From Candidatus Binataceae bacterium (lineage in GTDB: Bacteria > Desulfobacterota > Binatia > Binatales > Binataceae): 64,000 nucleotides of DNA. Shown one piece after another: positions 8,301 through 30,592 of this stretch; the stretch's first letter is position 1, and each line of letters opens with the position of its first letter. The notes below the pieces were generated by a model. It was not told the origin of the DNA and searched no databases. It worked only from the letters and a program-made list of their open reading frames with translations. The translations under genes and the position numbers were made by a program. The stretch is taken from assembly GCA_015478645.1 (NCBI GenBank), contig JADMIL010000005.1, positions 1-64,000 of the forward strand. The letters are read 5' to 3'.

Positions 8301-9092
8301 TCAGTCGGCCGAATGCGCCGCCTTGGGATACGCCGCACCGCCATCGATCGTCAGGACCGCGCCGGTGGTATAGCTGGCTGCCGGACTGGCGAGATAGAGC
8401 GCCGCACCAACGATCTCGTCGGGTTCGCCGCCGCGCTGCAAGGCGAAGTTCTCGCGCGCGCGGTGGGTGAAAAATTCGGTCCGCGACCAGCTCTTGCTGA
8501 TATCGGTGTGGAACGCGCCGCACATGATGCAATTCACGCGGACCTTGGGGCCGTACTCCTTCGCGGAAGCTACCGTCAGGATGTTGAGGCCGGCCTTGGC
8601 CGCCGCGTAGGGCGCGGTGTCGGGCGACGGCTGAATCGCCGAGATCGACGAGATATTGATGATCGCGCCGCCCTCGCCCGCCGCCATCCGCTCGCCGAAC
8701 AGCGCGGTCAGGCGAAACGGCCCCTTCAGGTTGACGGCCATCACTTTGTCGAATAGCTCCTCAGGCGTCTGCAATGACGACGGCGCGACCGGCGAGAGGC
8801 CGGCGTTGTTGATCAGCACGTCGACGCGGCCCCACCGGGCATAGGCCTCTGCGGCCAGCCGATCGCAATCGGCCCATTTGCCGACGTGAATCGCATGGGC
8901 CGAGGCGTCGCTGCCGAGCGCGCGAATCTCGGCGACGGTCGCTTCGCACGAATCGATCTTGCGGCTGGCGATCGCCAGCCGCGCGCCGGCGCGGGCAAAG
9001 CCCAACGCCATCGCATGGCCCAGGCCGCGGCTGCCGCCGGTGATGACGACGACCTTGCCGGTAAAGTCGAAAGGATTGGCGATCGCCGTCAC
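8301..9092 (-). CDS. SDR family oxidoreductase
   Basis: 263-residue classical short-chain dehydrogenase. The Rossmann dinucleotide motif TGGSRGLG is at residues 18-25, NNAG at about 92, a catalytic Ser in INISSISA and the YxxxK motif in YAAAK. It starts at GTG (9092), overlapping the stop of the upstream acyl-CoA dehydrogenase as GTGA, so the two are translationally coupled. The coupling suggests oxidation of a hydroxyacyl intermediate in the same catabolic route (inference). The substrate is unknown. Confidence 0.9.
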   Translation of the reverse strand: MTAIANPFDFTGKVVVITGGSRGLGHAMALGFARAGARLAIASRKIDSCEATVAEIRALGSDASAHAIHVGKWADCDRLAAEAYARWGRVDVLINNAGLSPVAPSSLQTPEELFDKVMAVNLKGPFRLTALFGERMAAGEGGAIINISSISAIQPSPDTAPYAAAKAGLNILTVASAKEYGPKVRVNCIMCGAFHTDISKSWSRTEFFTHRARENFALQRGGEPDEIVGAALYLASPAASYTTGAVLTIDGGAAYPKAAHSAD

Positions 9093-10387
9093 TGGGACGC
9101 CACCTCGTGCTCAACGCGATCGGCGTACTTCTTGATCGCGGCTTCGCGCAAAGACGGGATATGGCCGGTCGGGAAAAGTCCGTCGGTGCCGCGATAATCG
9201 CGCAGGATCTGGCGCGCGAGCGTGATCTTGTGAACTTCGGTCGGTCCGTCGGCCAGCCCCATCACGAAGCTCTCCATCACCTGATCGACGAACGGCATCT
9301 CGGGCGTGACGCCGAGCGAGCCGTGAATCTGGAGCGCGCGCACGGCCACGTCGTGAAACACCTTGGGCATCTGCGCCTTCACCGCGGCGATATCCTTGCG
9401 CACCTTGAGATAGTCCTTGTAGCGATCGATCCGCCATGCGGTACGCAGCACCAGCAGGCGGAACTGCTCGATGTCGATCCACGAATCCGCGATCTTCTCC
9501 TGCACCATCTGCTTGTCGGCCAGCCGCGAGCCCTGCGTGGTGCGCGAGAGCACCCGCTCGCACATCTGGTCGAAGGCCTTGCGCACCTGACCGATCGTGC
9601 GCATCGCATGGTGGATGCGGCCGCCACCCAGGCGCGTCTGGGCCACGACGAAGCCGCTGCCGCGCGTGCCCAGCAGATGATCCTTGGGCACCTGCACGTC
9701 CGAATAGCGAACATAGGCGTGGGCGCCGGCGCCCTCGGGCTCCTGGCCGACGCCGACGTTGCGCTCGATCTTCACGCCCGGCGCGTTGGCCGGCACGATA
9801 AACATCGAGAGGCGCTGATAAGGCGGCGCGTCGGGGTCGGTCACCACCATCGCGATGAGGAATGACGCCCAGCGCGCGTTGGAGGAGAACCACTTCTCGC
9901 CATTGATCACCCAGTTGTCGCCGCGCAGCTCGGCGTGCGTGGTGAAGACCTTGGGATCGGCGCCGCCCTGCGGTTCGGTCATCGAGAAGCACGAGACGAT
10001 CTCGTTTTTGAGCAGCGGATCGAGAAACTGTTTTTTCTGCTCGGGCGTGCCGTACTTGGCCAGGATTTCGGCGTTGCCGGAATCGGGCGCCTGGCATCCG
10101 AAGACCGTCGGGGCGAAGCGCGAACGGCCCAGGATTTCATTCATCAGCGCGAGCTTGACCTGGCCGTAGCCCTGGCCGCCAAGGTCGGGCTCGAGATGGC
10201 ACGCCCAGAGCTTGTGTTTGCGCACTTCGGCTTGCAGCGGACGCACCAGCGCGTTGCGCTTGGGATCGAGCACGTCGTAGGGCGATTCGAGCAGGTAGTC
10301 GAGCGGCTCGACCTCGGCGCGGACGAACTGTTCGATCCAGTCGAGTTGCTTCTGAAATTCGGGTTCGGTTTCAAAATCCCAGCTCAT
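9089..10387 (-). CDS. Acyl-CoA dehydrogenase family protein
   Basis: 432 residues. It oxidises an acyl-CoA thioester using FAD, passing electrons to ETF. Visible family signatures are CFSMTEPQGGADPKVF (FAD and substrate loop), INGEKWFSSNA and, near the C-terminus, QIHGSLGVTPEMPF. The start at MSWDFETE (10387) is chosen for the GGAGGA just upstream; the open frame beyond it is not coding-like. It is coupled to the SDR downstream. The sequence resembles the larger acyl-CoA dehydrogenases of branched or unusual acyl chains; the exact substrate is unknown. Confidence 0.92.
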   Translation of the reverse strand: MSWDFETEPEFQKQLDWIEQFVRAEVEPLDYLLESPYDVLDPKRNALVRPLQAEVRKHKLWACHLEPDLGGQGYGQVKLALMNEILGRSRFAPTVFGCQAPDSGNAEILAKYGTPEQKKQFLDPLLKNEIVSCFSMTEPQGGADPKVFTTHAELRGDNWVINGEKWFSSNARWASFLIAMVVTDPDAPPYQRLSMFIVPANAPGVKIERNVGVGQEPEGAGAHAYVRYSDVQVPKDHLLGTRGSGFVVAQTRLGGGRIHHAMRTIGQVRKAFDQMCERVLSRTTQGSRLADKQMVQEKIADSWIDIEQFRLLVLRTAWRIDRYKDYLKVRKDIAAVKAQMPKVFHDVAVRALQIHGSLGVTPEMPFVDQVMESFVMGLADGPTEVHKITLARQILRDYRGTDGLFPTGHIPSLREAAIKKYADRVEHEVASQ

Positions 10388-10548
10388 GGGAAATCCTCCA
10401 TCGGTTCGGGTAAAGATTTGCCGCGCGTGCCGTGGCCGGCCATTGCGACTCGCGGCGCATACGGCTCGGATCGCGCGCGCCGGCGCCGCTCCAGGCTTGC
10501 GTCCGACAGCGTAGCGAGCCGCATCCGCAAATGCCAAGGGCGGGCGCT

Positions 10549-11730
10549 TCAGTCGGCCTCCATCAGGGGAATATCGAAGGCGCTCTTGCCGAGAAATTCG
10601 AGGCTCTCATCGCTGTCGAACGGATGATAAAGCCCGGCGCGCACGTCGCGGTAGTAACGTTCCAGCGGCAGCCGCTTGAAGTACGAGGAGCCGCCCACCG
10701 CGCGCAGCGCGAGGTCGACCACCTTGACCGAGTTTTCGATCGCGATCATCCGCGCGGCGACCGCCTTGCGCGACCAACTGCGCGGATGATCGATCTCGAG
10801 TTCGGCCGCCGCCTTCCACATCACCGCGCGCGCGCCTTCGATCAGGAGATCCATTTCGCCGACCTTGTTGAAGACGCTCGGCAGATGGCTCATCGGTTTC
10901 TTGAGCGGATAGCGCGGCCGATCGCGCATGAAGTCGACTACGAAGTTGCGCGCGGCGACGGCGATACCGATATACGGCGCGCCGATCGAAAACGGCGCCT
11001 TGGCAAAGACCCGCGTGATGCGCCCGCTGCTCGAGACCTTGCGCTGGAGCACCACGTCATCGTCGGCGACGAAGACCTCTTTCAATTCCGCGCTGCGCGA
11101 CTCGGTCGCCCGCATGCCCATCGTGTTCCAGTCGTTCTTGAACTCGAGGCCGGCCACGTCGCGCGGGTTGAAGTAGAGGCTTAAGATCGACGGTCCCTGC
11201 GGCGCATCCTCCCATGCGGCCTCGATGAAATACTGATCGAGCGCGATACTCTGCGTGCCGAAAATCTTGCGGCCGTTGACGATCCATCCGCCGGGACCGC
11301 GCCGCGCGGTGGTCCGCGGCCGCAGCGCGATGACCGCGTTGTCGGGTTCGGAGCCCGAGCCGCCGCAGATCAGCCGCTCGCCCGCGATACGCTTGAGCTT
11401 GCGCTCAACGTTGGGCGCCTTGAACTTGCGATACAGGTCGACCAGCAGCTCGACCACGTTGAAATGCATGTTGATCGCGAGCGCGGTCGCGCCGCAGCCC
11501 TGGGCGAGACGCTCCTGGGTCTTGATCCGCTCGAGCATCGAAGCACCGAGCCCGCCGAAGGCCTCGGGGATGATCAGGGTGGTGTAGCCGGACTCCTTGA
11601 GGCGGGCGTAATTCTCGTGCGGGAAGGATCGTTCCTCGTCGTGGCGCGCGGCGCGCTCGGCAAAATCATCGGCCAGCGTGCCCGCCAAATCGATGAAGCG
11701 CTGCTCGCGTTCGGTATTGATCGGATTCAT
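10549..11730 (-). CDS. Acyl-CoA dehydrogenase family protein (second)
   Basis: 394 residues, divergent from the previous protein. N-terminal helical domain with the EAFGGLGASMLERIKTQERLAQGC region, the flavin-domain motif GGWIVNGRKIFGTQS and a C-terminal AVGGSSYFKRLPLERYYRDVRAG motif typical of the acyl-CoA dehydrogenase/monooxygenase superfamily. No obvious catalytic glutamate could be assigned, so it could be a flavin monooxygenase such as a DszC/HpaB-like member. The ATG at 11730 has GGAGGG upstream. It is transcribed away from the TfdA-like gene. Confidence 0.85.
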   Translation of the reverse strand: MNPINTEREQRFIDLAGTLADDFAERAARHDEERSFPHENYARLKESGYTTLIIPEAFGGLGASMLERIKTQERLAQGCGATALAINMHFNVVELLVDLYRKFKAPNVERKLKRIAGERLICGGSGSEPDNAVIALRPRTTARRGPGGWIVNGRKIFGTQSIALDQYFIEAAWEDAPQGPSILSLYFNPRDVAGLEFKNDWNTMGMRATESRSAELKEVFVADDDVVLQRKVSSSGRITRVFAKAPFSIGAPYIGIAVAARNFVVDFMRDRPRYPLKKPMSHLPSVFNKVGEMDLLIEGARAVMWKAAAELEIDHPRSWSRKAVAARMIAIENSVKVVDLALRAVGGSSYFKRLPLERYYRDVRAGLYHPFDSDESLEFLGKSAFDIPLMEAD

Positions 11731-11962
11731 CGCCCGCCCTCCGTACATCCCAGATCGCATCCCCGGGCGCGCCCTCAGATTGACGCCCGGATCAGCGGCT
11801 CGTGGATCGTGGCGCGAGCTTACTACCAAGGTTGCGCAGCGTAAAACGGTTGCGCAGTGTAGAGTGATACGGCGAGCGGCGCGCGGGACGGGCGTGACGG
11901 GCGCGTCCGCTTGACCGTGCGCCGCGCCATTTGCGATAGAAAATGCCAGCGCGACGGCGCGA
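11731..11962. other. Intergenic region between divergent genes
   Basis: About 230 bp between the divergent acyl-CoA dehydrogenase and TfdA-like genes, up to the left end of repeat copy E. It includes a short AT-richer part around 11815-11875 that could hold a promoter. No gene is supported. Confidence 0.35.
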
Positions 11963-12069
11963 GGAACCTGTGCGCAAGTTAGGTTGTCATTCTGAGCGCA
12001 GCGAAGAATCCCGAATCCGGGACCCATTCGCTTCGCTCAGGGTGACAGCAGAGCCTTGTGCAGAGGTTC
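11963..12069. repeat. MITE-like palindromic repeat, copy E
   Basis: A nearly complete copy in the same orientation as copy B: left end GGAACCTGTGCGCAAG, right end CTTGTGCAGAGGTTC. The flanks are GCGA on both sides (11959-11962 and 12070-12073), so here the target duplication is not YTAR. The right end is 25 bp upstream of the TfdA-like start codon. Confidence 0.87.
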
Positions 12070-15092: not shown

Positions 15093-16310
15093 CTACCCCA
15101 ACGCTTCGGCGGCGACCAGTTCGCTGATGCGATCATCGCTGTAGCCCAGCAGATCGTGCAGTACGTGATGGTTATCCTCGCCCAGCGCGGGCCCGGCGCG
15201 ATCGACCCGCGCCGGCGTACCCGACATTTTGTAGCGTGAATTTTCGACCGCCGTGGCGCCCGCCACCGATTGGGTAACCTTGACGAAGTGATCGCGATGG
15301 GCCAGTTGCGGATCGGCCGCGAGGTCGGCGGATTCCTGCACCGTATGGGCCGGCACGCCGGCCGCCTGCAACGCGCGCTCACTCGCATGCGGATCGAATT
15401 GCATTGTCCACTGCGCAACGGCCGCATCGAGTTCCAGGCGCCGCGCGTCGCGTGCGGCAAAGGTCGCGTAGCGCTTGTCGGCGGCGAGGTCCGGCCGCTT
15501 CATCACCGCGCATAGCGCCTGCCAATGGGCGTCGGTGGCGCACGCGATCGCGATCCAGCGATCGTCGCCAGCCGCCGGATAGACCCCGTGCGGCGCATGA
15601 CTCGGATCGTAATTGGCGACCGGCGAATAGACCGTGCCGTTGGCCGCGCAATCGAGAATCGGAATCGTCAGGAACTGCATCGCCGACTCGGCCTGCGCCT
15701 GATCGATATACTGCCCCTGTCCGGTGCGCTTGCGATGGATCAGCGCGGCCATCAGGGCCACCAGGCCAAAGCGCGGCGCGATATAATCGGTATAGGCGCT
15801 GTACGGTCCCGACGGCGTCCGGTCGGGCCATCCGACCAGGTTGTAGAATCCGCATAGCGCCGCCGCCAGGTTGCCGAAGCCGGCAAAGCGCGCGAGCGGC
15901 CCCGTCTGGCCCATCAGGCAGGTGCTGAGCATGACCAGGTCGGGCTTGATCGCGCGCAACGATTCGTAATCGAAGCCCCACGCGCGCATCGCCTTGGGCG
16001 AGAAGGCCTCGCAGACCACGTCGGCCCAGCGCACCAGGTCGAAAACCACTTCGCGCGCGCCGGGTTTGGACAGGTCGAGCGAGAGCGCCAGCTTACCCGC
16101 GTTGTTATTGGCGTAAAGGCCCGAATATTCGAGGCCCGGGTTGTTGCCCTTGAACGGACCGACCGTGCGCACCGGATCGATGCGGCCGGCCGACTCGATA
16201 CGCACGATGGTCGCGCCGTAATCGGCCATCGACCGCGTGATCCCGGGTCCGGCCAGCACCCACATGAAGTCGAGCACCTTGACGTCGGCGAGCGGCAGTT
16301 TGCGCGCCAT
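15093..16310 (-). CDS. CaiB/BaiF family (type III) CoA-transferase, downstream of a pair
   Basis: 405 residues. The start (VLDFMWVLAGPGITRSMADYGATIVRIE) is the family N-terminal Rossmann-like region, and the catalytic region contains GQGQYIDQAQAESAMQFL. These interlocked-dimer enzymes move CoA between carboxylic acids. Its ATG overlaps the stop of the upstream paralogue by one base (TGATG), so the pair is translationally coupled and may form a heteromer, as known for BbsEF. The substrate is unknown. Confidence 0.9.
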   Translation of the reverse strand: MARKLPLADVKVLDFMWVLAGPGITRSMADYGATIVRIESAGRIDPVRTVGPFKGNNPGLEYSGLYANNNAGKLALSLDLSKPGAREVVFDLVRWADVVCEAFSPKAMRAWGFDYESLRAIKPDLVMLSTCLMGQTGPLARFAGFGNLAAALCGFYNLVGWPDRTPSGPYSAYTDYIAPRFGLVALMAALIHRKRTGQGQYIDQAQAESAMQFLTIPILDCAANGTVYSPVANYDPSHAPHGVYPAAGDDRWIAIACATDAHWQALCAVMKRPDLAADKRYATFAARDARRLELDAAVAQWTMQFDPHASERALQAAGVPAHTVQESADLAADPQLAHRDHFVKVTQSVAGATAVENSRYKMSGTPARVDRAGPALGEDNHHVLHDLLGYSDDRISELVAAEALG

Positions 16311-17551
16311 CAGATAATCCCCTTGCGCGCGAGCGCGGTGATCTCGCCCTCGCTCAATCCAAGTTCGCCGAGATAGACCTCGCGATTATGCTCGCCGACG
16401 CGCGGCGGACGGCGCCGATAGCCGATCGGCGTCGCACTCATTTGCGCGAACGGTCCCGGATAGGTCAGCGCGCGCGGCAGTTCGGGATGCTCAACGTGGC
16501 GCCAGTATTCGCGCGCGGCGAACTGCGGATTGTCGAGCACCTCGCCGATCGTCGCGAGCGGCGCGATCAGCAGATTATGCTCGCGGGCGATCGCGAACAG
16601 TTCCGCCTTGGTGTGATGCGCGAAAAAATTGGCGATCTGCTCCTTGACCCGATCATAGGCCGTGAGCGGCTCAACGCCGGTCAGCAGCAGGTTGCCATAG
16701 GCGATCCAGTCCTTGTCGCGCGTCGCGTCATCGCAAAATCCCGCCGCGTGGATAAAGTTCACCAACTTGCGGGTGAAGACCCCGAGCGCCGGGCCGAACA
16801 GCACGACGCTCGAGACCAGGCCGTCGCGCGCCGCCCATACCAGTGGCACCCGGATCGGACCCATCTTGGCGCCGCCCGCCATGCGCCGCGTGTCGTCGCC
16901 GCCGATCACCGCGGCCAGCGGGGTCGATTGCGCGGCGAGGCCCACACTCTCCTGCGCGGCCACGTCGAGATGCTGGCCGAGCCCCGAGTCGAGCCGGCCG
17001 TAATAGGCGATCAGCGCGGCGCCGGCCGCGTCGCAGCAGGCGTGCAGGTAGGCCTGCGGCACACTCATCCGGATCGGTGCGCGATCTTCGTCGCCATAGA
17101 GGATCAGCACACCGCCCGCCGCCATGATGATCAAATCGCTGTCGGCGTAAGTCGCCTTGGGACCGTCCTGGCCAAACGGCGTGATCGAAACGTAGACCAG
17201 CGCCGGATTATCCGCCGCCAGGTCGCCGTAGCCCAGTCCGCGCCGCGCGAGTTCGCCCGGATTGTCGGACTCGAGCAGGAAATCGGCCCGCGCCGCGAGT
17301 CGCCGCAGCAGGCCGCGCCCTTCGTCGGTCTCGAGGTTCAGCGTGATTCCGCGTTTGTTGCGGTTATACGCCCACCAGCAGATCGAACGATCCGCCGCCG
17401 ACGCTCCGGCAAAGAATGGACCCTGCGCCCGCACCGGGGAGCCCCCCGGCGGTTCGATTTTGATTACGTCCGCACCCAGATCGCCGAGCAACTGGCCGCA
17501 CAGCAGCCCGCGCTCGGTCGTCAGATCGATTACCCGGCATCCGTCCAGCAT
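16310..17551 (-). CDS. CaiB/BaiF family (type III) CoA-transferase, upstream of a pair
   Basis: About 413 residues from the ATG at 17551, preceded by an uncertain extension. The N-terminal motif is LCGQLLGDLGADVIKIEPP, the catalytic-loop region is GLGQHLDVAAQESVGLAAQ and a C-terminal GVEPLTAYDRVKEQ follows. It shares the family fold but is clearly different from its neighbour, consistent with a heteromeric enzyme or divergent substrates. No strong ribosome-binding site was seen before 17551, so the start may lie elsewhere. The VOC genes lie upstream on the same strand. Confidence 0.87.
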   Translation of the reverse strand: MLDGCRVIDLTTERGLLCGQLLGDLGADVIKIEPPGGSPVRAQGPFFAGASAADRSICWWAYNRNKRGITLNLETDEGRGLLRRLAARADFLLESDNPGELARRGLGYGDLAADNPALVYVSITPFGQDGPKATYADSDLIIMAAGGVLILYGDEDRAPIRMSVPQAYLHACCDAAGAALIAYYGRLDSGLGQHLDVAAQESVGLAAQSTPLAAVIGGDDTRRMAGGAKMGPIRVPLVWAARDGLVSSVVLFGPALGVFTRKLVNFIHAAGFCDDATRDKDWIAYGNLLLTGVEPLTAYDRVKEQIANFFAHHTKAELFAIAREHNLLIAPLATIGEVLDNPQFAAREYWRHVEHPELPRALTYPGPFAQMSATPIGYRRRPPRVGEHNREVYLGELGLSEGEITALARKGII

Positions 17552-17709
17552 GATTTCGCACGCACCCCAATGCGAACCGCACCGGTACCAGCTCCAACCC
17601 GGACTCCCCCGACCAGCACCGGCACTACTCCGCGCCACACTTTCGCCCGCTCGAGCCGCCGACGTCAAACGGCGCGCGCACGGCGCCGACCACGGAATTG
17701 GTCCCGCGA

Positions 17710-20427: not shown

Positions 20428-21261
20428 TCAGCGCAGACCGGGCCACAGGGCAAGCGCGGTCCCGCCCATGATCGCCTGGCGATCGGCATGGCCGAGAAAC
20501 TCAAGCTCGCGGCGCGCCAGGTCGACCTGCTCGACGAATCCGCGATCGTGCGTCGCCGGATAGTTCGTTCCCCACATGATGCGGCGCGCGCCATAGCGAT
20601 CGACCAGCCGGCCGATAAAATCGCGTGCCGTCGACGCGCCGCGCGCGGCGGCGTAGAGCGTAACGCTCGACAGCTTCAGGTAGAGGTTCGGGTAGCGCGC
20701 GAGATCGAACAGCGGACGCGCCGCCGCATAGGGCGGCCCGTCGTCGAGGCGCGGCAGACCGGCGTGGTCGAGCGCCACCGCGACCCGCGGAAAACGCTCG
20801 AGCGGCGCCATCAGCCGCGGCACCTGGCGCATCGGCGCGCATACGCAGATCGGAATATGCAGCGACTCGGCCAACTCCCACAGCGGAAAGGTCCGCGGAT
20901 CGTCGAGCCATTCGCCGGCCGGTTCCGTCAGCGCGAACAGCCTGAGCCCGCGCATCGCACGCTCGGTCACCCAATAATTCAGCCGCCCGGCGGCATCGTC
21001 GCGCAGTGGATCAACGATCGCCACGCCGGCGAACCGGTCCGGATAGGCCAGCGCCGCGTCGGCCGCGTAGCTGTTGTCGTAGCCATAGGCGCCGTGGGCC
21101 TGCACGAGGACCGTGCGATCGACGCCCGCCGCGTCCATCACTTCGATCAGATGCTCGGCCGAGGTCTCGCGGACCCATTCGCTATGCGCCCCGGAGAGCG
21201 TGCGCGGATACTTGCGCTGGTCCGGCGCAATCACATGCACATGCGTGTCGACGACCACCAT
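20428..21261 (-). CDS. Amidohydrolase family protein (TIM barrel, COG3618-like)
   Basis: 277 residues. The N-terminal metal motif is intact (VDTHVHVIAP), and a barrel His occurs in VALDHAGLPRL. At the position where metal-dependent members usually have Asp (GSDYP), this protein reads WGTNYP. Asn is common in some LigI-like lactonases that need no metal, so it may be a lactone- or ester-hydrolase of ring-cleavage metabolism rather than a metal amidohydrolase. It lies 63 bp beyond the enoyl-CoA hydratase on the same strand and may share its operon. Confidence 0.82.
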   Translation of the reverse strand: MVVVDTHVHVIAPDQRKYPRTLSGAHSEWVRETSAEHLIEVMDAAGVDRTVLVQAHGAYGYDNSYAADAALAYPDRFAGVAIVDPLRDDAAGRLNYWVTERAMRGLRLFALTEPAGEWLDDPRTFPLWELAESLHIPICVCAPMRQVPRLMAPLERFPRVAVALDHAGLPRLDDGPPYAAARPLFDLARYPNLYLKLSSVTLYAAARGASTARDFIGRLVDRYGARRIMWGTNYPATHDRGFVEQVDLARRELEFLGHADRQAIMGGTALALWPGLR

Positions 21262-21324: not shown

Positions 21325-22083
21325 CTACTTGCCCTTCCATTCGGGCGCGCGCTTGGCGGCGAAGGCCCGCGCCCCTTCGCGCGCGTCGTCCGTGCCCTGG
21401 AGCCATTTATACAGATCGCGTTCGAGCTTGAGACCGTCGGCCAGCGGCAGATCGAGTCCGCGCAGCGCGGCCTGCTTGATCCGCTGCACGGCGAGCGGCG
21501 CGCTCTTGCAGATCTCGCCCGCGATCGCCTCGCACTTTTCGCGCAGCCCGCTCATCGGCACGACGTAGTCGACGAGCCCCAGGCGCAAGGCCTCGTCGGC
21601 GCCGATTCGATTCCCCGTGTACAGCATCTCGAGCGCGCGGCCGAGCGGAATCAGGCGCGGCAGGCGCTGCGTGCCACCGCCCCCCGGCAGCCATCCAAGG
21701 CGCACCTCGCCGAGTCCGAACTGCGCATGCTCGGCGGCGACGCGGATATCGCAGGCCAGCGCCTGCTCGAGTCCGCCGCCGTTGGCATGGCCGTTAATCG
21801 CCGCGATAATCGGCTTGTAGAGGTCGTACATAATCGGGAACGGCGAGCTCGGCGGATCCTCGCCGGGGCGCGCGACGTAGTTGTCCTTCACGTCGCTGCC
21901 GGCGCAAAAGGCGCGCTCGCCCGCGCCGGTCAGGATCGCGACGCGCAGCGCGGCGTCGTCGCGGAACTCGCGCCAGATCTCGGCCAGCTGGCCGTAGGCT
22001 TCGAAATCGCACGCGTTGAGCCGCTCGGGCCGATTGATCGTGACGTAGGCGATCGCTCCGCGTTTCTCGAATATCACTTTCAT
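21325..22083 (-). CDS. Enoyl-CoA hydratase/isomerase family protein
   Basis: 252-residue crotonase. The oxyanion hole FCAGSD, the GHANGGGLEQAL motif with the Glu equivalent to rat Glu144, and FGLGEVRLGWLPGGGGTQ with the Glu equivalent to Glu164 are all present, so it should hydrate enoyl-CoA. The ATG at 22083 is taken because the family start (MKVIFEKRGAIAYVTINRPE) falls there. It lies between the amidohydrolase and the benzoate-CoA ligase and could act in the lower part of benzoate degradation (inference). Confidence 0.88.
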   Translation of the reverse strand: MKVIFEKRGAIAYVTINRPERLNACDFEAYGQLAEIWREFRDDAALRVAILTGAGERAFCAGSDVKDNYVARPGEDPPSSPFPIMYDLYKPIIAAINGHANGGGLEQALACDIRVAAEHAQFGLGEVRLGWLPGGGGTQRLPRLIPLGRALEMLYTGNRIGADEALRLGLVDYVVPMSGLREKCEAIAGEICKSAPLAVQRIKQAALRGLDLPLADGLKLERDLYKWLQGTDDAREGARAFAAKRAPEWKGK

Positions 22084-22221
22084 CGCCGGCGGCCTCGCTT
22101 CACGCGCGCAGCGGTCGCGCGCATCATCATAAATCGCTGATAAATCGTGCTCCGACGCGACCCTCGGTTGCAAGCCCGCCGAAGGAGTCGCGCGAATGCG
22201 GGCCGTCACACGCGATCGCGT

Positions 22222-23871
22222 TCAGCCCTGGCTCAAGGCATAGCGCTTGAGTTTGCCGGTCGCGGTGCGCGGCAGCTCGGCGCGGAACTCGATCCAGCGC
22301 GGATATTTGTAGGGCGCGACGCGCGCCTTGACGAAATCCTGCAACTCTTCCGCCAGCGCCGGCGAGGCCAGCGCGGCGTCCTTCAACACCACGAATGCCT
22401 TGGGCTTGATCAGTTCGTCGGCGCCGGCCGCGCCAATCACCGCCGCCTCGCGCACCGCCGGATGCGCCATCAGGGCATTCTCGACCTCGAACGGCGAGAC
22501 CCAGATGCCGCCGACCTTCAGCATGTCGTCGGAGCGGCCGGCGAAATGGTAATAGCCGTCGGCGTCGCGCAGATATTTGTCGCCGGTGCGCAGCCATCCG
22601 CCGACGAAGGTCGCACTGCTCGCGGCGCGATTGTTCCAGTAGGCCGCGCCGATCGATGGTCCGCGCACCCAAAGATCGCCGATCGCGTCGGGCGCGGTCG
22701 CGGCGCCGTCCTCGCCGCGCAGAGCCAGTTCGTAGCCGCCGACCGCCGTGCCCGAAGATCCATGGCGCACCGCTCCGGCGCGATTCGACACAAAGATGTG
22801 CAGCGCCTCGGTCGATCCAAGCCCGTCGAGGATCTCCGTCCCGGTCCGCGCGCTCCATTCGCGGGCCACCGCCGCGGGCAACGCCTCGCCAGCCGAGGTG
22901 CATACGCGCAGCCGCGAGGTTGCCGCCGCGTCCGCGAGCGACGGCTCCGCAAGCATCCCGGCATACAGCGTCGGCACGCCGCAGAAGATCGTCGGGCGAT
23001 GGGTCCGGATCATGCGGATCACAGCCGCGGGCGCCGGCCGCTCCGCCATCAGTACCGCGGTGGCGCCGGCGTGCAGCGGAAAGGTCATCGAATTGCCCAA
23101 CCCGTAGGCGAAAAACATTTTCGAGGCCGAGAACAGCAGGTCGTCCGCAGCAATCCCGAGCACCCGCTCCGCATATAGCACCGCAGTCTGCACCAGACTA
23201 CGATGCAGATGCAGGACGCCCTTGGGGCGCCCGGTCGAGCCCGACGAATAGAGCCACAGCGCAACATCGTCGGCGACTGTCGGCGCGGCATTCAGCTCGT
23301 CCGCCGCCGCCGCACTTAGCGCGTCGAACGAATGAGCAGTGCGGTCCGCGATCGTCGCCGCCGCCCCGCCGCATACGATAACCTCGCGCAGAAACGGCTG
23401 GCTGCCGAGCGCCGGCGCGATCCGATCGGCGAGCGGCGCGGAAACCGCGAGCAGCTTCGCCCGGCTGTCGCGCAGCAGATAGTCATAGTCATCGGCGGCG
23501 AGCATCGTGTTGACCGGAACGGGCACCGCGCCAATCTTCACCGCGCCCCAGAACAGCGCCGCGAAATCGATCCCATCCTGCACGCAGAGCATCACGCGCT
23601 GCTCCATCTCGAGGCCGAGACGCCTCAGCGCATGGCCGGCGCGATTCACTCGCGCGGCGAGATCCGCATACGTGTAGCTCCCGCAATCGTCGATGTAGGC
23701 GATCTTCGCACCGCGCCCCTCGCGCGCGTGGCGATCGATAAAGTACGTCGCCGCGTTATACTCGCGCGCGGTCGCGATGCCGCCGGCCTCGTGCGTCGCG
23801 CCGGCCCCATCGGACAGCGCTGGCAAAGGTTCGCGCGATGCGGCAGCGCTTTGCGGAATCTTATTCGTCAT
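22222..23871 (-). CDS. bclA: Benzoate-CoA ligase
   Basis: 549 residues from the ATG at 23871 (an ORF extends upstream). Acyl-adenylate-forming enzyme that activates benzoate with ATP and CoA, the first step of benzoate catabolism. Motifs: AMP-binding loop LYSSGSTGRPKG (A3), GSTE, YRTGD-like RTGDKYLRDADGYY, and the catalytic Lys in TATGKLKRYAL (A10). The benzoate-CoA ligase family has about 520-530 residues; the extra N-terminus is Ala-rich. It is transcribed divergently from boxR with a BoxR-type operator in the gap. The choice between BclA and a related aryl-CoA ligase is supported by the box neighbours. Confidence 0.88.
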   Translation of the reverse strand: MTNKIPQSAAASREPLPALSDGAGATHEAGGIATAREYNAATYFIDRHAREGRGAKIAYIDDCGSYTYADLAARVNRAGHALRRLGLEMEQRVMLCVQDGIDFAALFWGAVKIGAVPVPVNTMLAADDYDYLLRDSRAKLLAVSAPLADRIAPALGSQPFLREVIVCGGAAATIADRTAHSFDALSAAAADELNAAPTVADDVALWLYSSGSTGRPKGVLHLHRSLVQTAVLYAERVLGIAADDLLFSASKMFFAYGLGNSMTFPLHAGATAVLMAERPAPAAVIRMIRTHRPTIFCGVPTLYAGMLAEPSLADAAATSRLRVCTSAGEALPAAVAREWSARTGTEILDGLGSTEALHIFVSNRAGAVRHGSSGTAVGGYELALRGEDGAATAPDAIGDLWVRGPSIGAAYWNNRAASSATFVGGWLRTGDKYLRDADGYYHFAGRSDDMLKVGGIWVSPFEVENALMAHPAVREAAVIGAAGADELIKPKAFVVLKDAALASPALAEELQDFVKARVAPYKYPRWIEFRAELPRTATGKLKRYALSQG

Positions 23872-23910
23872 TGCCTGGACAGATAGCAGCCCGGCGGTCT
23901 CGTTCCCAGC

Positions 23911-23924
23911 GGCATTATATTGCA
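23911..23924. promoter_or_regulatory. BoxR-type operator, bclA-boxR gap
   Basis: The sequence is GGCA-TTATAT-TGCA, one base off the TGCA-N6-TGCA operator reported for BzdR/BoxR regulators. The minus strand carries TATAAT in this same element, so BoxR binding would overlap a -10 of bclA. A further TGCA occurs at 23954-23957. Confidence 0.72.
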
Positions 23925-23956
23925 TATCGAGCCCGATGATGACAACCATCTCTTGC

Positions 23957-24880
23957 ATGAGCCGTCCGTCGTCCATCGCGATCTCCGGCGCCGCATCGGC
24001 CGCGGCGTCCGCGGATTATCTGCGCCTGCTCGGCGAACGCGTGCGCGACGCGCGCGCCCGCCACGGCATGACGCGGCGGATGCTCGCGCAAGACTCCGGG
24101 GTCTCCGAACGCTACCTCGCGCAACTCGAAGGCGGTCGCGGCAATTTTTCAATCGTCTTGCTCAAGCGGGTCGCCGCCGCGATCGACGTGCGCCTCGCCG
24201 ACCTGGTCAGCGAAGAGCGCGCGTCGCTCGAATACGAACTCGCGGCCCAGCGCCTGCGCCGCCTCGCCCCGGCGCAACTCGCCGAAGCGTCGGCGATCCT
24301 GGCCGCACGCTTTGGCGCCAGTGCCGATCGGATGGAACGTATCGCCTTAATCGGGATGCGCGGTGCGGGCAAAAGCACGCTCGGCCCGCTGCTCGCGCAG
24401 AACCTCAACTGGCAGTTCATCGAACTGAGCCGCGAGATCGAGCGCGAAGCCGGCGTCGGGGTCCACGAGATTTTTGCGCTAGGGGGACAGGCGGCCTACC
24501 GGCGCTACGAACGGCGCGCCACCGAACGGATTCTGCGCACCCGCGCACACGTCGTAATCGCGGCCGGCGGCGGCCTGGTCGCGGAACTCGGCACCTTCGA
24601 GCAACTGCTCGGCGCCTGCTACACCGTATGGCTGCGCGCCGCGCCCGAGGACCATTGGGAGCGCGTGGTGCGCCGCGCCGGCGATCAGCGCGTCCGCGGT
24701 GGCGCCGACGAAGCCCACGCGATGGCCGACCTGCGGCGCATCCTCGGACAGCGCGAGGCGCTCTACGGCAAGGCCGACGCGCGCCTCGACACCAGCGGGC
24801 GGACGCCGGCCCGCTCGCTGCGCGACCTGCTTGAGCTGGCCGGCCGGAGGCGACCGGCTAACGGCGTGCGGCGCGCTTGA
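23957..24880 (+). CDS. boxR: BoxR/BzdR-type benzoate regulator (HTH plus shikimate-kinase-like domain)
   Basis: 307 residues. An XRE-type helix-turn-helix occupies about 18-80 (RDARARHGMTRRMLAQDSGVSERYLAQLEGGRGN). The C-terminal half resembles shikimate kinase, with a Walker A loop GMRGAGKST and a kinase-like lid region (IAAGGGLVAE, then RVVRRAG). In known BzdR and BoxR this half binds benzoyl-CoA, which releases the repressor. The start may be ATG 23957, or ATG 23936 for a slightly longer product. It sits between bclA (divergent) and boxC; matching operators lie at both promoters. Confidence 0.92.
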   Translation: MSRPSSIAISGAASAAASADYLRLLGERVRDARARHGMTRRMLAQDSGVSERYLAQLEGGRGNFSIVLLKRVAAAIDVRLADLVSEERASLEYELAAQRLRRLAPAQLAEASAILAARFGASADRMERIALIGMRGAGKSTLGPLLAQNLNWQFIELSREIEREAGVGVHEIFALGGQAAYRRYERRATERILRTRAHVVIAAGGGLVAELGTFEQLLGACYTVWLRAAPEDHWERVVRRAGDQRVRGGADEAHAMADLRRILGQREALYGKADARLDTSGRTPARSLRDLLELAGRRRPANGVRRA

Positions 24881-24911
24881 CGGATCGAAGTGTAATATGC
24901 ATTATAATGCA
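24877..24911 (+). promoter_or_regulatory. boxCB promoter and BoxR operator
   Basis: A perfect TGCA-TTATAA-TGCA operator at 24898-24911. A -35 box TTGACG (24877-24882) is 17 nt from the -10-like CATTAT (24900-24905), so a bound repressor would cover the -10. The -35 overlaps the boxR stop codon. Confidence 0.8.
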
Positions 24912-24940
24912 TTTCTCAAGACACCGCGATCGGACGACAG

Positions 24941-26623
24941 ATGTATCTTAAGACGCCCGCCAGGCAAGCCATCATGATCGACTTTCGCACCCATCCCGGA
25001 GCCTACCGCCATTGGAAACTCGCGATCGAGGGACCGGTCGCCGTCCTCGCGCTCGACGTCGCGGAAGGCGGTGGCCTGTTTCCCGGCTATGAGCTCAAGC
25101 TCAACTCCTACGACCTGGGCGTCGATATCGAACTCAACGACGCGATCCAGCGGCTGCGCTTCGAGCATCCGCAAGTGCGCAGCGTGATCCTCACGTCGGC
25201 CCGTGAGCGGGTCTTCTCGGCCGGCGCCAATATCCGCGCGCTCGGCCAGGCGACCCATTCGTTCAAGGTGAATTTTTGCAAATTCACTAACGAAACGCGC
25301 AACTCGATCGAGGACGCCACGCGCAACTCGGGCCAAGTCTATCTTGCCGCGATCAACGGCGCGTGCGCCGGTGGCGGCTACGAACTGGCGCTGGCCACCG
25401 ACTACATAATGATGGCCGACGACGGCGCGACCAGCGTCTCGCTGCCCGAAATTCCATTGCTCGCGGTGCTGCCCGGCACCGGCGGTCTCACCCGCCTGGT
25501 CGACAAACGCCACGTGCGTCGCGACCACGCGGATTTCTTTTGCACCACCGAGGAGGGCATCCGCGGGGCGCGCGCCGTGCAATGGCGCCTGGTCGACGAA
25601 ATCGTGCCGCGCACGCGCCTGGCCGATGCGGCCCGGGCCAAGGCGCTCGCGCTCGCCGCGGCGTCGCCGCCGCAAGCCGGCGCCGCCGGCGTCGCGATGA
25701 CGCCGCTCAAACGCGAAACCGCGCCGGATCATCTAGGCTACGCGCAGCTCGAGATCGCGATCGATCGCGCACGCGGCGCCGCCGAATTCATGCTGCGCGG
25801 ACCCGCCGCACCGGCGCCGTCGACGCTCGCCGCCATTCGCGCGCAGGGCGCTTCGTTCTGGCCGCTCGCAATCGCGCGGGAGCTGGAAGACGCAATCCTG
25901 CATCTGCGCTTTAACGAGGAAGCCATCGGCACCTGGGTCTTCCGCTCCGCGGGCGACGGCCCAATCGCCGGATCTTACGACGATGCGCTGCGCGAATTTG
26001 CAGGCGACTCGATGATGCGTGAAGTCACGCTCTACTTGAAGCGCACGCTGGCGCGCCTCGACGTGACCGCGCGCTCGATGTTCGCGTTGATCGAGCCCGG
26101 CTCGTGCTTTACCGGGACGCTTCTCGAACTGGCGCTCGCCGCCGATCGCATCTATATGCTGGCCGGCAATCGCGAGGACGACGTGACTCCGGCCGCCGCG
26201 CTTTCCTTGACCGGGGCAAATTTCGGCGCCTACCCGATGATCAACGGCCTCACTCGCCTCGCCGCACGTTTTGCGGGCGATCCGGCGCACCTTGATGATT
26301 TGCGCCGCCGATGCGGTCGTCCGATCGCCGCCGCCGAAGCCGAAGCGCTCGGTCTCGCCACCTTCACGCCCGACGATCTCGACTGGGACGACGAGGTGCG
26401 GCTCGCGCTCGAATCGCGCAAATCGTTTTCGCCCGACGCACTCACCGGGATGGAGGCGTCGCTGCGTTTCGCCGGCCCCGAGACCATGGAGAGCAAGATT
26501 TTCGCGCGCCTCTCCGCCTGGCAGAACTGGATTTTCCAGCGTCCCAACGCCGTCGGCGAGCGCGGCGCACTCAAACTCTACGGCACCGGCCAACGCGCCG
26601 CATTCGACCCAAAGAGGGTATGA
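24941..26623 (+). CDS. boxC: 2,3-Epoxybenzoyl-CoA dihydrolase
   Basis: 560 residues, crotonase superfamily. It opens the 2,3-epoxide of benzoyl-CoA and yields 3,4-dehydroadipyl-CoA semialdehyde and formate. The long BoxC-type architecture is seen: N-terminal DFRTHPGAYRHWKL, crotonase core motifs FSAGANIRAL and GACAGGGYELALATDY, and LPEIPLLAVLPGTGG. ATG 24941 is 30 nt after the operator; ATG 24974 would give a slightly shorter form and lies closer to the conserved start. It is coupled to boxB by an ATGA overlap. Confidence 0.93.
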   Translation: MYLKTPARQAIMIDFRTHPGAYRHWKLAIEGPVAVLALDVAEGGGLFPGYELKLNSYDLGVDIELNDAIQRLRFEHPQVRSVILTSARERVFSAGANIRALGQATHSFKVNFCKFTNETRNSIEDATRNSGQVYLAAINGACAGGGYELALATDYIMMADDGATSVSLPEIPLLAVLPGTGGLTRLVDKRHVRRDHADFFCTTEEGIRGARAVQWRLVDEIVPRTRLADAARAKALALAAASPPQAGAAGVAMTPLKRETAPDHLGYAQLEIAIDRARGAAEFMLRGPAAPAPSTLAAIRAQGASFWPLAIARELEDAILHLRFNEEAIGTWVFRSAGDGPIAGSYDDALREFAGDSMMREVTLYLKRTLARLDVTARSMFALIEPGSCFTGTLLELALAADRIYMLAGNREDDVTPAAALSLTGANFGAYPMINGLTRLAARFAGDPAHLDDLRRRCGRPIAAAEAEALGLATFTPDDLDWDDEVRLALESRKSFSPDALTGMEASLRFAGPETMESKIFARLSAWQNWIFQRPNAVGERGALKLYGTGQRAAFDPKRV

Positions 26624-28038
26624 CGATGGCCATCGACTACACCGAACGGATTCCCAACAACGTCAACCTCGCCGGGGATCGCCGCCTGCAGCGCGCGCTC
26701 GAACAATGGCAGCCGGGCTTCCAGAGCTGGTGGCGCGAGATGGGACCGGCCGGCTACCAGGCGACGGAGGTCTACCTGCGCACGGCGATTTCGGTCGATG
26801 CGCAGGGCTGGGCGACCTTCGGCCACGTGCGCATGCCGGATTACCGCTGGGGCATCTTTCTGGCCGAGCCGCATCGCGACCGCACGATTCCGTTTGGCCG
26901 CCATCTGGGCGAACCGGTATGGCATGAGGTGCCGGGCGAATACCGCGGCGCGCTGCGCCGGCTAATCGTCACCCAGGGCGATACCGAACCGGCCTCCGTC
27001 GAGCAGCAGCGCCATCTCGGTGCCACCTGCCCGTCGCTTTACGATCTCCGCAATCTCTTCCAGGTCAACGTCGAAGAGGGCCGCCATCTGTGGGCGATGG
27101 TCTACCTGTTGCACGCCTACTTCGGGCGCGACGGGCGCGAGGAGGCCGACACGCTGCTGGTCCGCCGCTCGGGCAGCCCCGACAATCCGCGTATCCTGGG
27201 GGCTTTCAACGAACCGACGCCCGACTGGCTATCTTACTTAATGTTTACATTTTTTACCGATCGTGATGGCAAGTATCAGCTCGCGAGCCTCGCCGAATCG
27301 GCCTTCGATCCGCTCTCGCGCACCTGCCGCTTCATGCTCACCGAAGAGGCCCATCACATGTTCGTCGGCGAGACCGGCGTCGGCCGCGTCGTGCAACGCA
27401 CCTGCGAACTGATGAAGGAGCACGACGCCGCCGAGGTTGGCCCGTTCGGCGGCATCGACCTGAAGCTGATTCAGAAATATCTCAACTTCCACTATTCGGT
27501 CTCGATCGATCTGTTCGGCTCGGAGCTTTCGACCAACGCCGCCAACTACTTCAGCATGGGCCTCAAGGGCCGCTTCAACGAGACCGCCCGCGCCGACGAC
27601 CATCAGTTGAGCGAAGCGCAGTACTCGGTCGCGCGATGTGACGGCGATCGCATCGTCGACCGGGCCGAACCGGCGCTGCTCGCGCTCAACGAATGCCTGC
27701 GCGACTCCTATGCGATCGACTGTGCGCGCGGCGTCGCGAAATGGAATCGCGCGATCAAGGCCGCCGGCATCGACTTCGAGCTCACCCTGCCCCATCGCGG
27801 CTTCCATCGCGCGATCGGCGACTGGGCCGCGGTCAAGGTCGCGCCAGACGGATCGATCATTTCACCGGCCGAATGGGAGCGCCGCCGCGACGAATGGCTG
27901 CCGACCGGCGCCGAGCGCGCCTTCGTCGGCTCGCTGATGCAGGGAGTGACCGCGCCGGGCAAGTTCGCCGGATGGATCGCGCCGCCCGCGCGCGGCATCA
28001 ATCATCAGCCGCTCGATTTCGACTACGTCAGGCTCTAA
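26620..28038 (+). CDS. boxB: Benzoyl-CoA 2,3-epoxidase, oxygenase subunit
   Basis: 472-residue di-iron protein of the BoxB family; with reductase BoxA it forms 2,3-epoxybenzoyl-CoA from benzoyl-CoA, O2 and NADPH. Iron-binding helices are visible as VEEGRHLWAMVY and LTEEAHHMFVGE. It matches family length (about 470). It begins MTMAIDY at 26620, overlapping the boxC stop as ATGA. No BoxA gene is present in the window. An AT-rich patch with TTA and TTT codons occurs at about 27236-27262. Confidence 0.94.
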   Translation: MTMAIDYTERIPNNVNLAGDRRLQRALEQWQPGFQSWWREMGPAGYQATEVYLRTAISVDAQGWATFGHVRMPDYRWGIFLAEPHRDRTIPFGRHLGEPVWHEVPGEYRGALRRLIVTQGDTEPASVEQQRHLGATCPSLYDLRNLFQVNVEEGRHLWAMVYLLHAYFGRDGREEADTLLVRRSGSPDNPRILGAFNEPTPDWLSYLMFTFFTDRDGKYQLASLAESAFDPLSRTCRFMLTEEAHHMFVGETGVGRVVQRTCELMKEHDAAEVGPFGGIDLKLIQKYLNFHYSVSIDLFGSELSTNAANYFSMGLKGRFNETARADDHQLSEAQYSVARCDGDRIVDRAEPALLALNECLRDSYAIDCARGVAKWNRAIKAAGIDFELTLPHRGFHRAIGDWAAVKVAPDGSIISPAEWERRRDEWLPTGAERAFVGSLMQGVTAPGKFAGWIAPPARGINHQPLDFDYVRL

Positions 28039-28154: not shown

Positions 28155-28946
28155 TTATTCCGCGCCCGGCATCCGCCCAATCCCGGTCTGCGCGGTTAGC
28201 CCACCGTCGACAATATAGGCGGCGCCGGTGATGAACGACGCTTCGTCGGACGCCAGGAAAGTCACCGTATTCGCGATCTCCTCCGGCTCGCCCATCCGGC
28301 CCACCGGATGAATCTTGCCCATCGCGCGCCGGAATTCCTCCGCGCGCTCGCCACCGAGCACCTGCGCGACGCGGGTGTTGATGCCGCCCGGGCAGACGCA
28401 ATTCACGCGGATCTTGTGTTTGGCATTCTCCAGCGCGGCCGCCCGCGTCAGATTGATCACGCCCGCCTTGGCCGCGTTGTACGAGGCCATCCCGTAGTCG
28501 CCGCGCGTGCCCGAGACCGACGCGGTGTTGACGATCGCGCCGCCGCCCTGCTTGCGCATAATCGGAATCGCATATTTCAGACCGAGAAACGTGCTCGTCA
28601 GCGTCACCGCGATCACCCGGTTCCAGCTCTCGAGCGTGGTCTCGTGCAGCCACGAAACCTCGGCCATGCCGGCATTGTTGAACAGGATATCGAGGCGCCC
28701 GAAGCTGTCGATCGCCAGCTTGATCGTCGCCTGCACCGCCTCGGCATCGCCGGCGTCCATCTTGATCGCGGCGGCTTTACCGCCGCCGGAATTAATCTCG
28801 TCTTTGACCTGGTTGGCGCGCGTGCCGCTCAGATCCGCGATCACCACCGCCGCGCCCTCACGCGCAAAGCGCCGTACCGTCGCCGCGCCGATTCCGGCGC
28901 CGCCGCCGGTCACGATCGCCACCCTGCCGTCGAATTTTCCCGCCAT
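28155..28946 (-). CDS. SDR family oxidoreductase
   Basis: 263-residue classical SDR with TGGGAGIGAATV near the N-terminus, FNNAGMA at about 90, a catalytic Ser in NTASVSG and YNAAK for YxxxK. It is convergent with boxB and lies 21 bp downstream of the acyl-CoA dehydrogenase stop on the same strand. Likely oxidises a 3-hydroxyacyl-CoA or cyclic alcohol; the substrate is unknown. Confidence 0.9.
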   Translation of the reverse strand: MAGKFDGRVAIVTGGGAGIGAATVRRFAREGAAVVIADLSGTRANQVKDEINSGGGKAAAIKMDAGDAEAVQATIKLAIDSFGRLDILFNNAGMAEVSWLHETTLESWNRVIAVTLTSTFLGLKYAIPIMRKQGGGAIVNTASVSGTRGDYGMASYNAAKAGVINLTRAAALENAKHKIRVNCVCPGGINTRVAQVLGGERAEEFRRAMGKIHPVGRMGEPEEIANTVTFLASDEASFITGAAYIVDGGLTAQTGIGRMPGAE

Positions 28947-28967
28947 CTGCGACGCTCCGCTTCCGCC

Positions 28968-30155
28968 CTAGCCTTTCGGTAATCCGAGCACGCGCTCGCC
29001 GATTATGTTGTGCTGGATTTCGTTGGTCCCGGCCGCGATCGTGCCGCGCCGTGCCGCCAGCATGCGATGCGACCATTTGCCGCGATCGATCGATCCCGGC
29101 GCGCGATACTCGAACACGCTGTACGGCCCGAGCAGCTCCATCGCGAACTTCTGGATGCGCAGGTTGAGCTCGCTGGTGCACAGCTTCATCATCGATCCCT
29201 CGGGCCCCGGCGGCAATCCCTTGAGCTGGCGCGTGAGCTGGCGAAAGCTCGTGTACTTGAGCCCTTCGGCCTCGCAGGCAAACGACGCGATCGTGTCGCG
29301 CACGTAGTCGTCCTCGATCGCCGGCCGCCCGTCGCGCGTGATCTGCTTCGCCAGCTCGGCGAGCTGCCTGATCTCGACCATCATGTCGGTGCGCCCGCCG
29401 TGGATTGTCCGCTCGAACATCATGTTGGTGATCGCGACCATCCAGCCCTGGTTCTTCTGTCCGACCAGGTTGGCCTTCGGCACCACCACATCTTCGTAAT
29501 AGACCTGGTTGAAGCCGCTCTCGCCGGTGATTTGCACCAGCGGCCGCACCACCACGCCGGGACTCTTCATGTCGAGCAGCAGGTAGCTCAGTCCGCGATG
29601 CTTGGGCGCGCTCGGGTCGGTGCGGCAGAGCAGCGTCGAGTAGTCGGCGTGATGCGCGTTGGAGGTCCATACCTTCGATCCGTTGACCACGAAATGGTCA
29701 CCATTATCGACCGCGCGCGTCTCGACCGCCGCGAGATCGGATCCGTGGTTGGGCTCCGAGAGCCCCTGGCACCAGATCTCCTCGGCCGACGGAATCCGCG
29801 GGATGTAGCGCGCCTTCTGCTCCGGCGTGCCCCATTGCATCAGTGTCGGCCCGACCCGCGCGATACCCTGGAAATTCACCGTGGGCGGCGCCTTCGCGCG
29901 CTCGAGTTCCTGATGATAGATGAACTGCTGCATCAGCGTCGCGCCGCGGCCGCCCAGCTCTTTGGGCCAATGAATACACATCCAGCCGGCGGCGTTGAGC
30001 TGGCGATGCCACGTGCGGCGCCGCTCGAACTCCTGCTTCGAGTCGGCGTCGGACAATTCGTCTTCGTCACGCCAGTCGCGCGGCAGATTGGTTTCCAGCC
30101 ATCCGCGGAATTCCGCGCGGAAGGCCTCATCCTCGTCGCTGTATTTGAAATCCAT
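28968..30155 (-). CDS. Acyl-CoA dehydrogenase family protein (third)
   Basis: 395 residues. N-terminal helical domain with HWPKELGGRGATLMQQFIYHQELE, flavin contacts in QGLSEPNHGSDLAAV and VVNGSKVWTSNAHHADY, and a C-terminal IAAGTNEIQHNIIGERVLGLPKG. The well-conserved pattern suggests a functional dehydrogenase for long, branched or cyclic acyl-CoAs. The start at MDFKYSDED (30155) matches the family; the frame upstream is not coding-like. It probably shares an operon with the downstream SDR. Confidence 0.92.
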   Translation of the reverse strand: MDFKYSDEDEAFRAEFRGWLETNLPRDWRDEDELSDADSKQEFERRRTWHRQLNAAGWMCIHWPKELGGRGATLMQQFIYHQELERAKAPPTVNFQGIARVGPTLMQWGTPEQKARYIPRIPSAEEIWCQGLSEPNHGSDLAAVETRAVDNGDHFVVNGSKVWTSNAHHADYSTLLCRTDPSAPKHRGLSYLLLDMKSPGVVVRPLVQITGESGFNQVYYEDVVVPKANLVGQKNQGWMVAITNMMFERTIHGGRTDMMVEIRQLAELAKQITRDGRPAIEDDYVRDTIASFACEAEGLKYTSFRQLTRQLKGLPPGPEGSMMKLCTSELNLRIQKFAMELLGPYSVFEYRAPGSIDRGKWSHRMLAARRGTIAAGTNEIQHNIIGERVLGLPKG

Positions 30156-30592
30156 AGAAATCCACCCTTGAATTGGGCTTCCTGAATCTTCTACGCCACT
30201 TCGCTTTAATCGATGGCGGCGATGCAGACTTGTTTCTAGCGCGCGACGGCGCGCACGCGCAACGCCACACGCCCCGCCACGGCGACTGGTGGGTTGGGCT
30301 CGGCCGAGTTGCCTTGCGCGCGGCAGGCGCCGGATGTGTCCGACTCCCCGTACTCCCCCAGGAACGGAAAACGCCAATCCGTTCCTCAGGTTACACTTTG
30401 AGCTTTATTACCTTTGCGTGAGCGGTGTTGGCGTGAGACCGTCAATGCAGGTGCCGCGATGCCTTTGCCCCCCAAGGGTTCGCGGAAAACTCGCAGCGCG
30501 TTCGATAGGCTGGCCCCACTCCGATTGGCCCAACGAATGCGCTGCTTTCTTTTTATCCACCATTCAGGTTTTCAACCTGAAGGATCGATCCT
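30156..30592. other. Intergenic region with two hairpins, no gene seen
   Basis: 437 bp. It holds a perfect inverted repeat GGAACGGA / TCCGTTCC (30362-30386, 9-nt loop) and another, TTCAGGTT / AACCTGAA with a 3-nt loop (30563-30581), which lies 12 bp past the VOC stop and could act as a terminator for that operon. The second half is AT-richer than the surroundings. No convincing ORF. Confidence 0.5.

Follow-up and report, generated by a model that had tools for sequence, protein, structure and literature searches.

A familiar BoxR circuit, earlier described mainly in proteobacteria, is found here in the uncultured phylum Binatota. The window, a stretch of 64,000 nucleotides on contig C35 of a Candidatus Binataceae genome (3.06 Mb, 92% complete), carries the gene order bclA-boxR-boxC-boxB, in which boxR is linked to the box genes. 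This locus is very probably a BoxR-controlled box-pathway cluster, in which BoxR represses boxCB, and here also bclA, through their -10 regions and is released by benzoyl-CoA. The protein family, the sites, their overlap with promoters, their conservation and their dependence on BoxR are shown below at the level of sequence comparison. A first-pass annotation of this DNA had noted two operator-like sites flanking boxR and had predicted benzoyl-CoA-responsive control of bclA and boxCB. The observation is confirmed, and its interpretation is largely supported.

No report of a BoxR regulon in Binatota was found in the open-licence literature. Aromatic ring-hydroxylating oxygenases have been described in the phylum, with nothing on benzoyl-CoA in the available sections of that paper (PMC9535955). 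The terms benzoyl, benzoate and aromatic are absent from the accessible portion of the main Candidatus Binatota genome survey (PMC8262859). The locus would extend the range of a characterised benzoyl-CoA switch to include Candidatus Binatota, and it yields the testable prediction that these uncultured bacteria use benzoate and do so inducibly.

The gene names bclA, boxR, boxC and boxB given by the first-pass annotation are right, as each product scores above the cut-off of its curated family. bclA encodes a benzoate-CoA ligase (22222 to 23871, reverse strand, start codon at 23871; TIGR02262, 698 bits, cut-off 375). boxR encodes a regulator with an XRE helix-turn-helix and a shikimate-kinase-like domain (23957 to 24880, forward strand), which passes the full-length family model NF006015 with 350 bits against a cut-off of 204. 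Its start is uncertain, with in-frame ATG codons also at 23936 and 23939. Next come boxC, for the 2,3-epoxybenzoyl-CoA dihydrolase (24974 to 26623, forward strand, with a further ATG at 24941; TIGR03222, 870 bits, cut-off 712), and boxB, for the benzoyl-CoA 2,3-epoxidase subunit (26611 to 28038, forward strand; TIGR03225, 821 bits, cut-off 499). The start of boxB, taken from the alignment start, is approximate and overlaps the end of boxC. An enoyl-CoA hydratase family gene (21325 to 22209, reverse strand; Pfam ECH_1) lies 12 bases after bclA and is its probable operon partner; it adjoins bclA in genomes G002, G003 and G004 as well. A lactonase-like amidohydrolase-2 family gene (20428 to 21261, reverse strand; Pfam Amidohydro_2) is possibly the end of the bclA operon. 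Genes of the CoA-transferase family III, acyl-CoA dehydrogenase, SDR and luciferase-like monooxygenase types are abundant around the locus (15093-17668, 9089-12027 and 28155-30377 of the window). These gene-rich surroundings suggest a larger CoA-thioester catabolic region.

The boxR-boxC gap contains a perfect 16-bp palindrome, ATGCATTATAATGCAT (24897 to 24912, neither strand assigned), which is the predicted boxC-side operator. Its core, TGCATTATAATGCA at 24898-24911, fits TGCA-N6-TGCA without a mismatch. The predicted bclA-side operator is an imperfect copy in the bclA-boxR gap, CGGCATTATATTGCAT (23910 to 23925, likewise unstranded), in which GGCATTATATTGCA at 23911-23924 has one mismatch to TGCA-N6-TGCA. 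Both sites are present where they had first been noted. They had been assigned to both divergent promoters; only bclA and boxR are divergent, whereas the boxC-side site stands between boxR and boxC, downstream of the former.

The published BoxR/BzdR palindrome, obtained by phylogenetic footprinting, is ATGCACTATAGTGCAT in the available part of PMC6449761, and BzdR operators are described as TGCA(N6)TGCA in passages of PMC6678401. The window sites fit both descriptions, as had been claimed, and a palindrome of the ATGCACTATAGTGCAT type is present at the predicted controlled promoters. The sites also lie outside the described lineages, in a Binataceae genome as against the Betaproteobacteria treated in the accessible parts of the cited work. 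BenR/XylS sites, quoted as TGCA-N6-GGNTA in excerpts of the same two papers, are alike in one TGCA half and a similar spacing. However, these sites serve AraC/XylS-type activators, whereas in the window TGCA palindromes stand next to a regulator of the XRE type.

TGCA-N6-TGCA was rejected as stand-alone evidence, since it shows no enrichment: with one mismatch allowed, the window has 10 matches where 19.3 are expected. Genome-wide, it has 13 exact matches, and the reversed control pattern has 9. The case for the operators comes from position, the full palindrome and conservation, and not from TGCA-N6-TGCA by itself. As a test pattern we used ATGCANTATANTGCAT, a form of the published palindrome in which N replaces the two most variable positions; it was chosen after the window sites had been viewed, and the bclA-side copy has two mismatches to it. 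This pattern has one exact match in the genome and three places with at most two mismatches, two of which are the operators described here. At up to three mismatches it finds 16 places, the same number as the control. A place at C74:16801 with at most two mismatches lies inside a respiratory-complex-I-like gene cluster and was rejected as an extra regulon member. The regulon appears self-contained, as had been proposed, for the strong sites only.

Multiple sites per regulated region are the usual, although not strictly defining, trait of BoxR/BzdR, and published sites are almost always multiple in the portion of PMC6449761 available. The window has one site per gap. A single site is also found in 10/10 Binataceae upstream gaps that have a site and in 11/14 downstream gaps, whereas roughly half of the Rhodocyclaceae-order loci have two. 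Single sites per gap, set against the multiple published ones, count against the BoxR-regulon reading. Pairing of the two sites over a distance was judged by eye from their spacings, which are not constant, and was set aside.

Both operators appear to overlap the presumed -10 region, a position that would suit a repressor. The putative boxC promoter (24877 to 24905, forward strand) consists of a -35 TTGACG (24877-24882), which overlaps the boxR stop codon, a 17-base spacer and a -10 CATTAT (24900-24905), which is the left part of the palindrome and lies inside the operator. TTGAC[AG]-N17/18-CATTAT, with the operator on the -10, recurs in all six genus genomes in which the gap is covered; the background for a -35 with 5 of 6 matches or better is 1.9% of places. 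The putative bclA promoter (23917 to 23945, reverse strand) has a -35 TTGTCA (23945-23940), a 5 of 6 match to TTGACA, followed by a 17-base spacer and a -10 CAATAT (23922-23917) inside the bclA-side operator. In most of the other genera of the Binataceae the -35-like hexamers are weak. This is a point against the BoxR-regulon reading, and the promoter assignment is therefore to be taken as firm only for the window's genus.

Binding, repression and the effect of benzoyl-CoA would be those of the characterised relatives. A BoxR dimer would bind ATGCATTATAATGCAT over the boxC -10 region and turn boxCB off. In this genome it would also bind the weaker bclA-side copy over the bclA -10 region, a site that adjoins the boxR start, so that autoregulation may be possible too. 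Benzoate would enter and be converted to benzoyl-CoA, which would bind the kinase-like domain; BoxR with benzoyl-CoA would then leave the DNA, allowing the genes to be read. The model follows betaproteobacterial BoxR (that of Azoarcus sp. CIB, and the regulons in Suvorova and Gelfand 2019, as far as described in the available text of PMC6449761), which has the same protein family and palindrome and a like arrangement, with boxR beside boxC and boxB and bclA on the divergent side. The Binataceae differ in belonging to another phylum, in having no canonical BoxA found and in a changed lid stretch of BoxR. The BzdR/PN promoter system of Azoarcus (excerpts of PMC6678401 and PMC3602430) also combines an HTH-XRE with a shikimate-kinase-like domain and has TGCA(N6)TGCA operators. 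BzdR is described there as a repressor released by benzoyl-CoA, and by analogy the same is predicted for the window BoxR. However, BzdR acts on the anaerobic bzd genes by way of three operator regions, whereas the window has aerobic box genes and single palindromes.

Of the 148 genomes of the class, 19 have BoxR, and 15 of these belong to the window's family. At each BoxR locus the scan covered 300 bases before the aligned boxR start and -50 to +250 around the stop. The boxC-side site (at most two mismatches) is present at 13/14 covered Binataceae BoxR loci, the fourteenth having three mismatches and G001 standing outside the count because its contig ends without that side; dinucleotide shuffles give 0.0004 expected per locus. 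The bclA-side site is present at 10/15 loci (shuffles 0.0000), and is missing in 5/7 genomes of the window's genus, being kept in the window and G002. The comparison of related genomes that had been suggested as a check thus bears out the boxC side and, in part, the bclA side. With this difference in conservation, control of boxCB is well supported, while the predicted control of bclA stands for this genome but is not general in the genus. The bclA-side absence in the five genomes counts against the BoxR-regulon reading. These five form one clade in the BoxR tree (100/99 support), so a single loss would suffice to explain the missing sites. The left half is GGCA instead of TGCA in 6/10 upstream sites, including that of the window, and this common weak half-site suggests a graded response rather than random decay.

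The bclA-side copy could instead be a relic, or serve only boxR autoregulation, in which case only boxCB would be BoxR-controlled in this genome. We regard this as somewhat unlikely. The two mismatches to the palindrome and the loss of the site from a five-genome clade of the genus would both fit such a history, but the site stays at a constant place in the ten loci that have it, across several genera. Furthermore, the window and G002 have a TTG-type -35 at 17 bases in the bclA direction (TTGCCA in G002), and no -35-like hexamer was seen toward boxR in either.

Beyond the family, none of the four other BoxR loci of the class has a site with two mismatches or fewer. By the same threshold, an upstream site is present in 27 and a downstream site in 17 of 31 proteobacterial loci; these are one on a Mycetohabitans plasmid and the best-scoring 30 loci from 49 positive genomes in the order of a Rhodocyclaceae genome, not a random sample. 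For the class to which a genome titled Alphaproteobacteria belongs, an upstream site occurs in 23 and a downstream site in 13 of 30 loci, again the best-scoring ones (from 36 positive genomes) and not random. Loci L072-L077 were not counted, as they repeat genomes G001, G002, G005, G053, G014 and G066; the weak hits L084-L085 were not used, and tblastn matches below 33% identity were dropped. An operator sequence can, it appears, remain nearly fixed between phyla.

The window BoxR has an N-terminal Pfam HTH_3 domain (29-83) and a C-terminal SKI domain (135-292), and retains the SERYLAxLExGxGN stretch of proteobacterial BoxR. The kinase-like domain keeps its Walker A loop (GMRGAGKST). Where E. 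coli shikimate kinase I has FYDSD, the window BoxR reads FIELS, with Ser in place of the second Asp; this Asp is reported to be catalytic from Asp36Ala work (PMC3602430). Nearly all non-Binataceae BoxR compared have RPM in the lid stretch of this domain, whereas all 15 from Binataceae have RV or RM there, with additional residues. With such a lid the effector response of Binataceae BoxR could differ, which is a point against the BoxR-regulon reading.

The BoxR tree has an arbitrary rooting and omits L097, which is the same locus as L078. In it, the Binataceae BoxR fall into a single group (100/100 support). Two BoxR of another Binatia family (L062 and L063) group with a Rhodocyclaceae BoxR (100/99). 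This split grouping would mean repeated entry of BoxR into the class, or its exchange, and a separate transfer is suggested for L062 and L063. The upstream sites of these two loci are degenerate, with three mismatches.

Of the box pathway, BoxB (TIGR03225) and BoxC (TIGR03222) are both over the cut-off. A canonical BoxA (TIGR03224) was not found in this 92% complete genome, where the best score is 83 bits against a cut-off of 459, nor at E 1e-60 in any of the 41 Binataceae genomes, though 27 of them have BoxB. Among 11 genomes searched as a control, three have BoxA over the cut-off and a fourth has a partial BoxA; it was not found in three further proteobacterial genomes nor in four other Binatia. 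The lack of a canonical partner for BoxB counts against the BoxR-regulon reading. A speculative and rather doubtful extension is a BoxA-less box pathway in which an unknown reductase feeds BoxB and a rebuilt BoxR lid changes the response or the aryl-CoA recognised, with the operator unchanged across phyla. It is also quite unlikely that BoxR binds the sites while the Binataceae branch uses another effector, such as another aryl-CoA, or partly activates. The lid change in every Binataceae BoxR is in its favour, but the predicted controlled genes are benzoyl-CoA genes, described family members are benzoyl-CoA-responsive repressors (PMC6449761 and PMC6678401, in the parts available), and an operator over the -10 region fits repression.

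The preferred reading, a BoxR-controlled cluster, draws on the distribution of the palindrome relative to the regulator. All 16 places with at most one mismatch in BoxR-bearing Binataceae genomes are at boxR, with none elsewhere in all 15 genomes; 12 of the 15 have such a place. Among the 26 BoxR-less Binataceae genomes, four (G020, G016, G061 and G052) have one each. The places in G020, G016 and G061 are inside long reading frames and were rejected as operators; the G052 sequence is complementary to that of G020. The 27 Binataceae genomes with BoxB include 14 without BoxR, and a place with at most one mismatch occurs in 0/14 of these. Within 400 bases upstream of boxC, a site with up to two mismatches occurs in 0/13 readable BoxR-less clusters (L199 was excluded, its boxC being cut), while two of the 13 regions have a three-mismatch site. 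Fisher p values are 7e-7 and 1e-5, with related genomes treated as independent. The BoxR-less sister clusters without the site serve as a natural control tying the motif to the regulator, and they appear to be the strongest link between palindrome and BoxR, with the reservation that related genomes are not independent. That the palindrome is a mere AT-rich promoter element (TATAAT on both strands) read by no regulator, as its overlap with the -10 region and the lack of over-representation of TGCA-N6-TGCA might suggest, is highly improbable in view of its conserved outer TGCA halves and of its presence in 13/14 box clusters of the family with BoxR against none of the 13 without.

The BoxR-less, operator-less boxCB-type clusters number fourteen (L190-L203). 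No common replacement regulator was found near them, as no gene family besides boxC and boxB occurs in more than 3/14 of these loci. TetR-like reading frames were seen by eye near L196 and L198.
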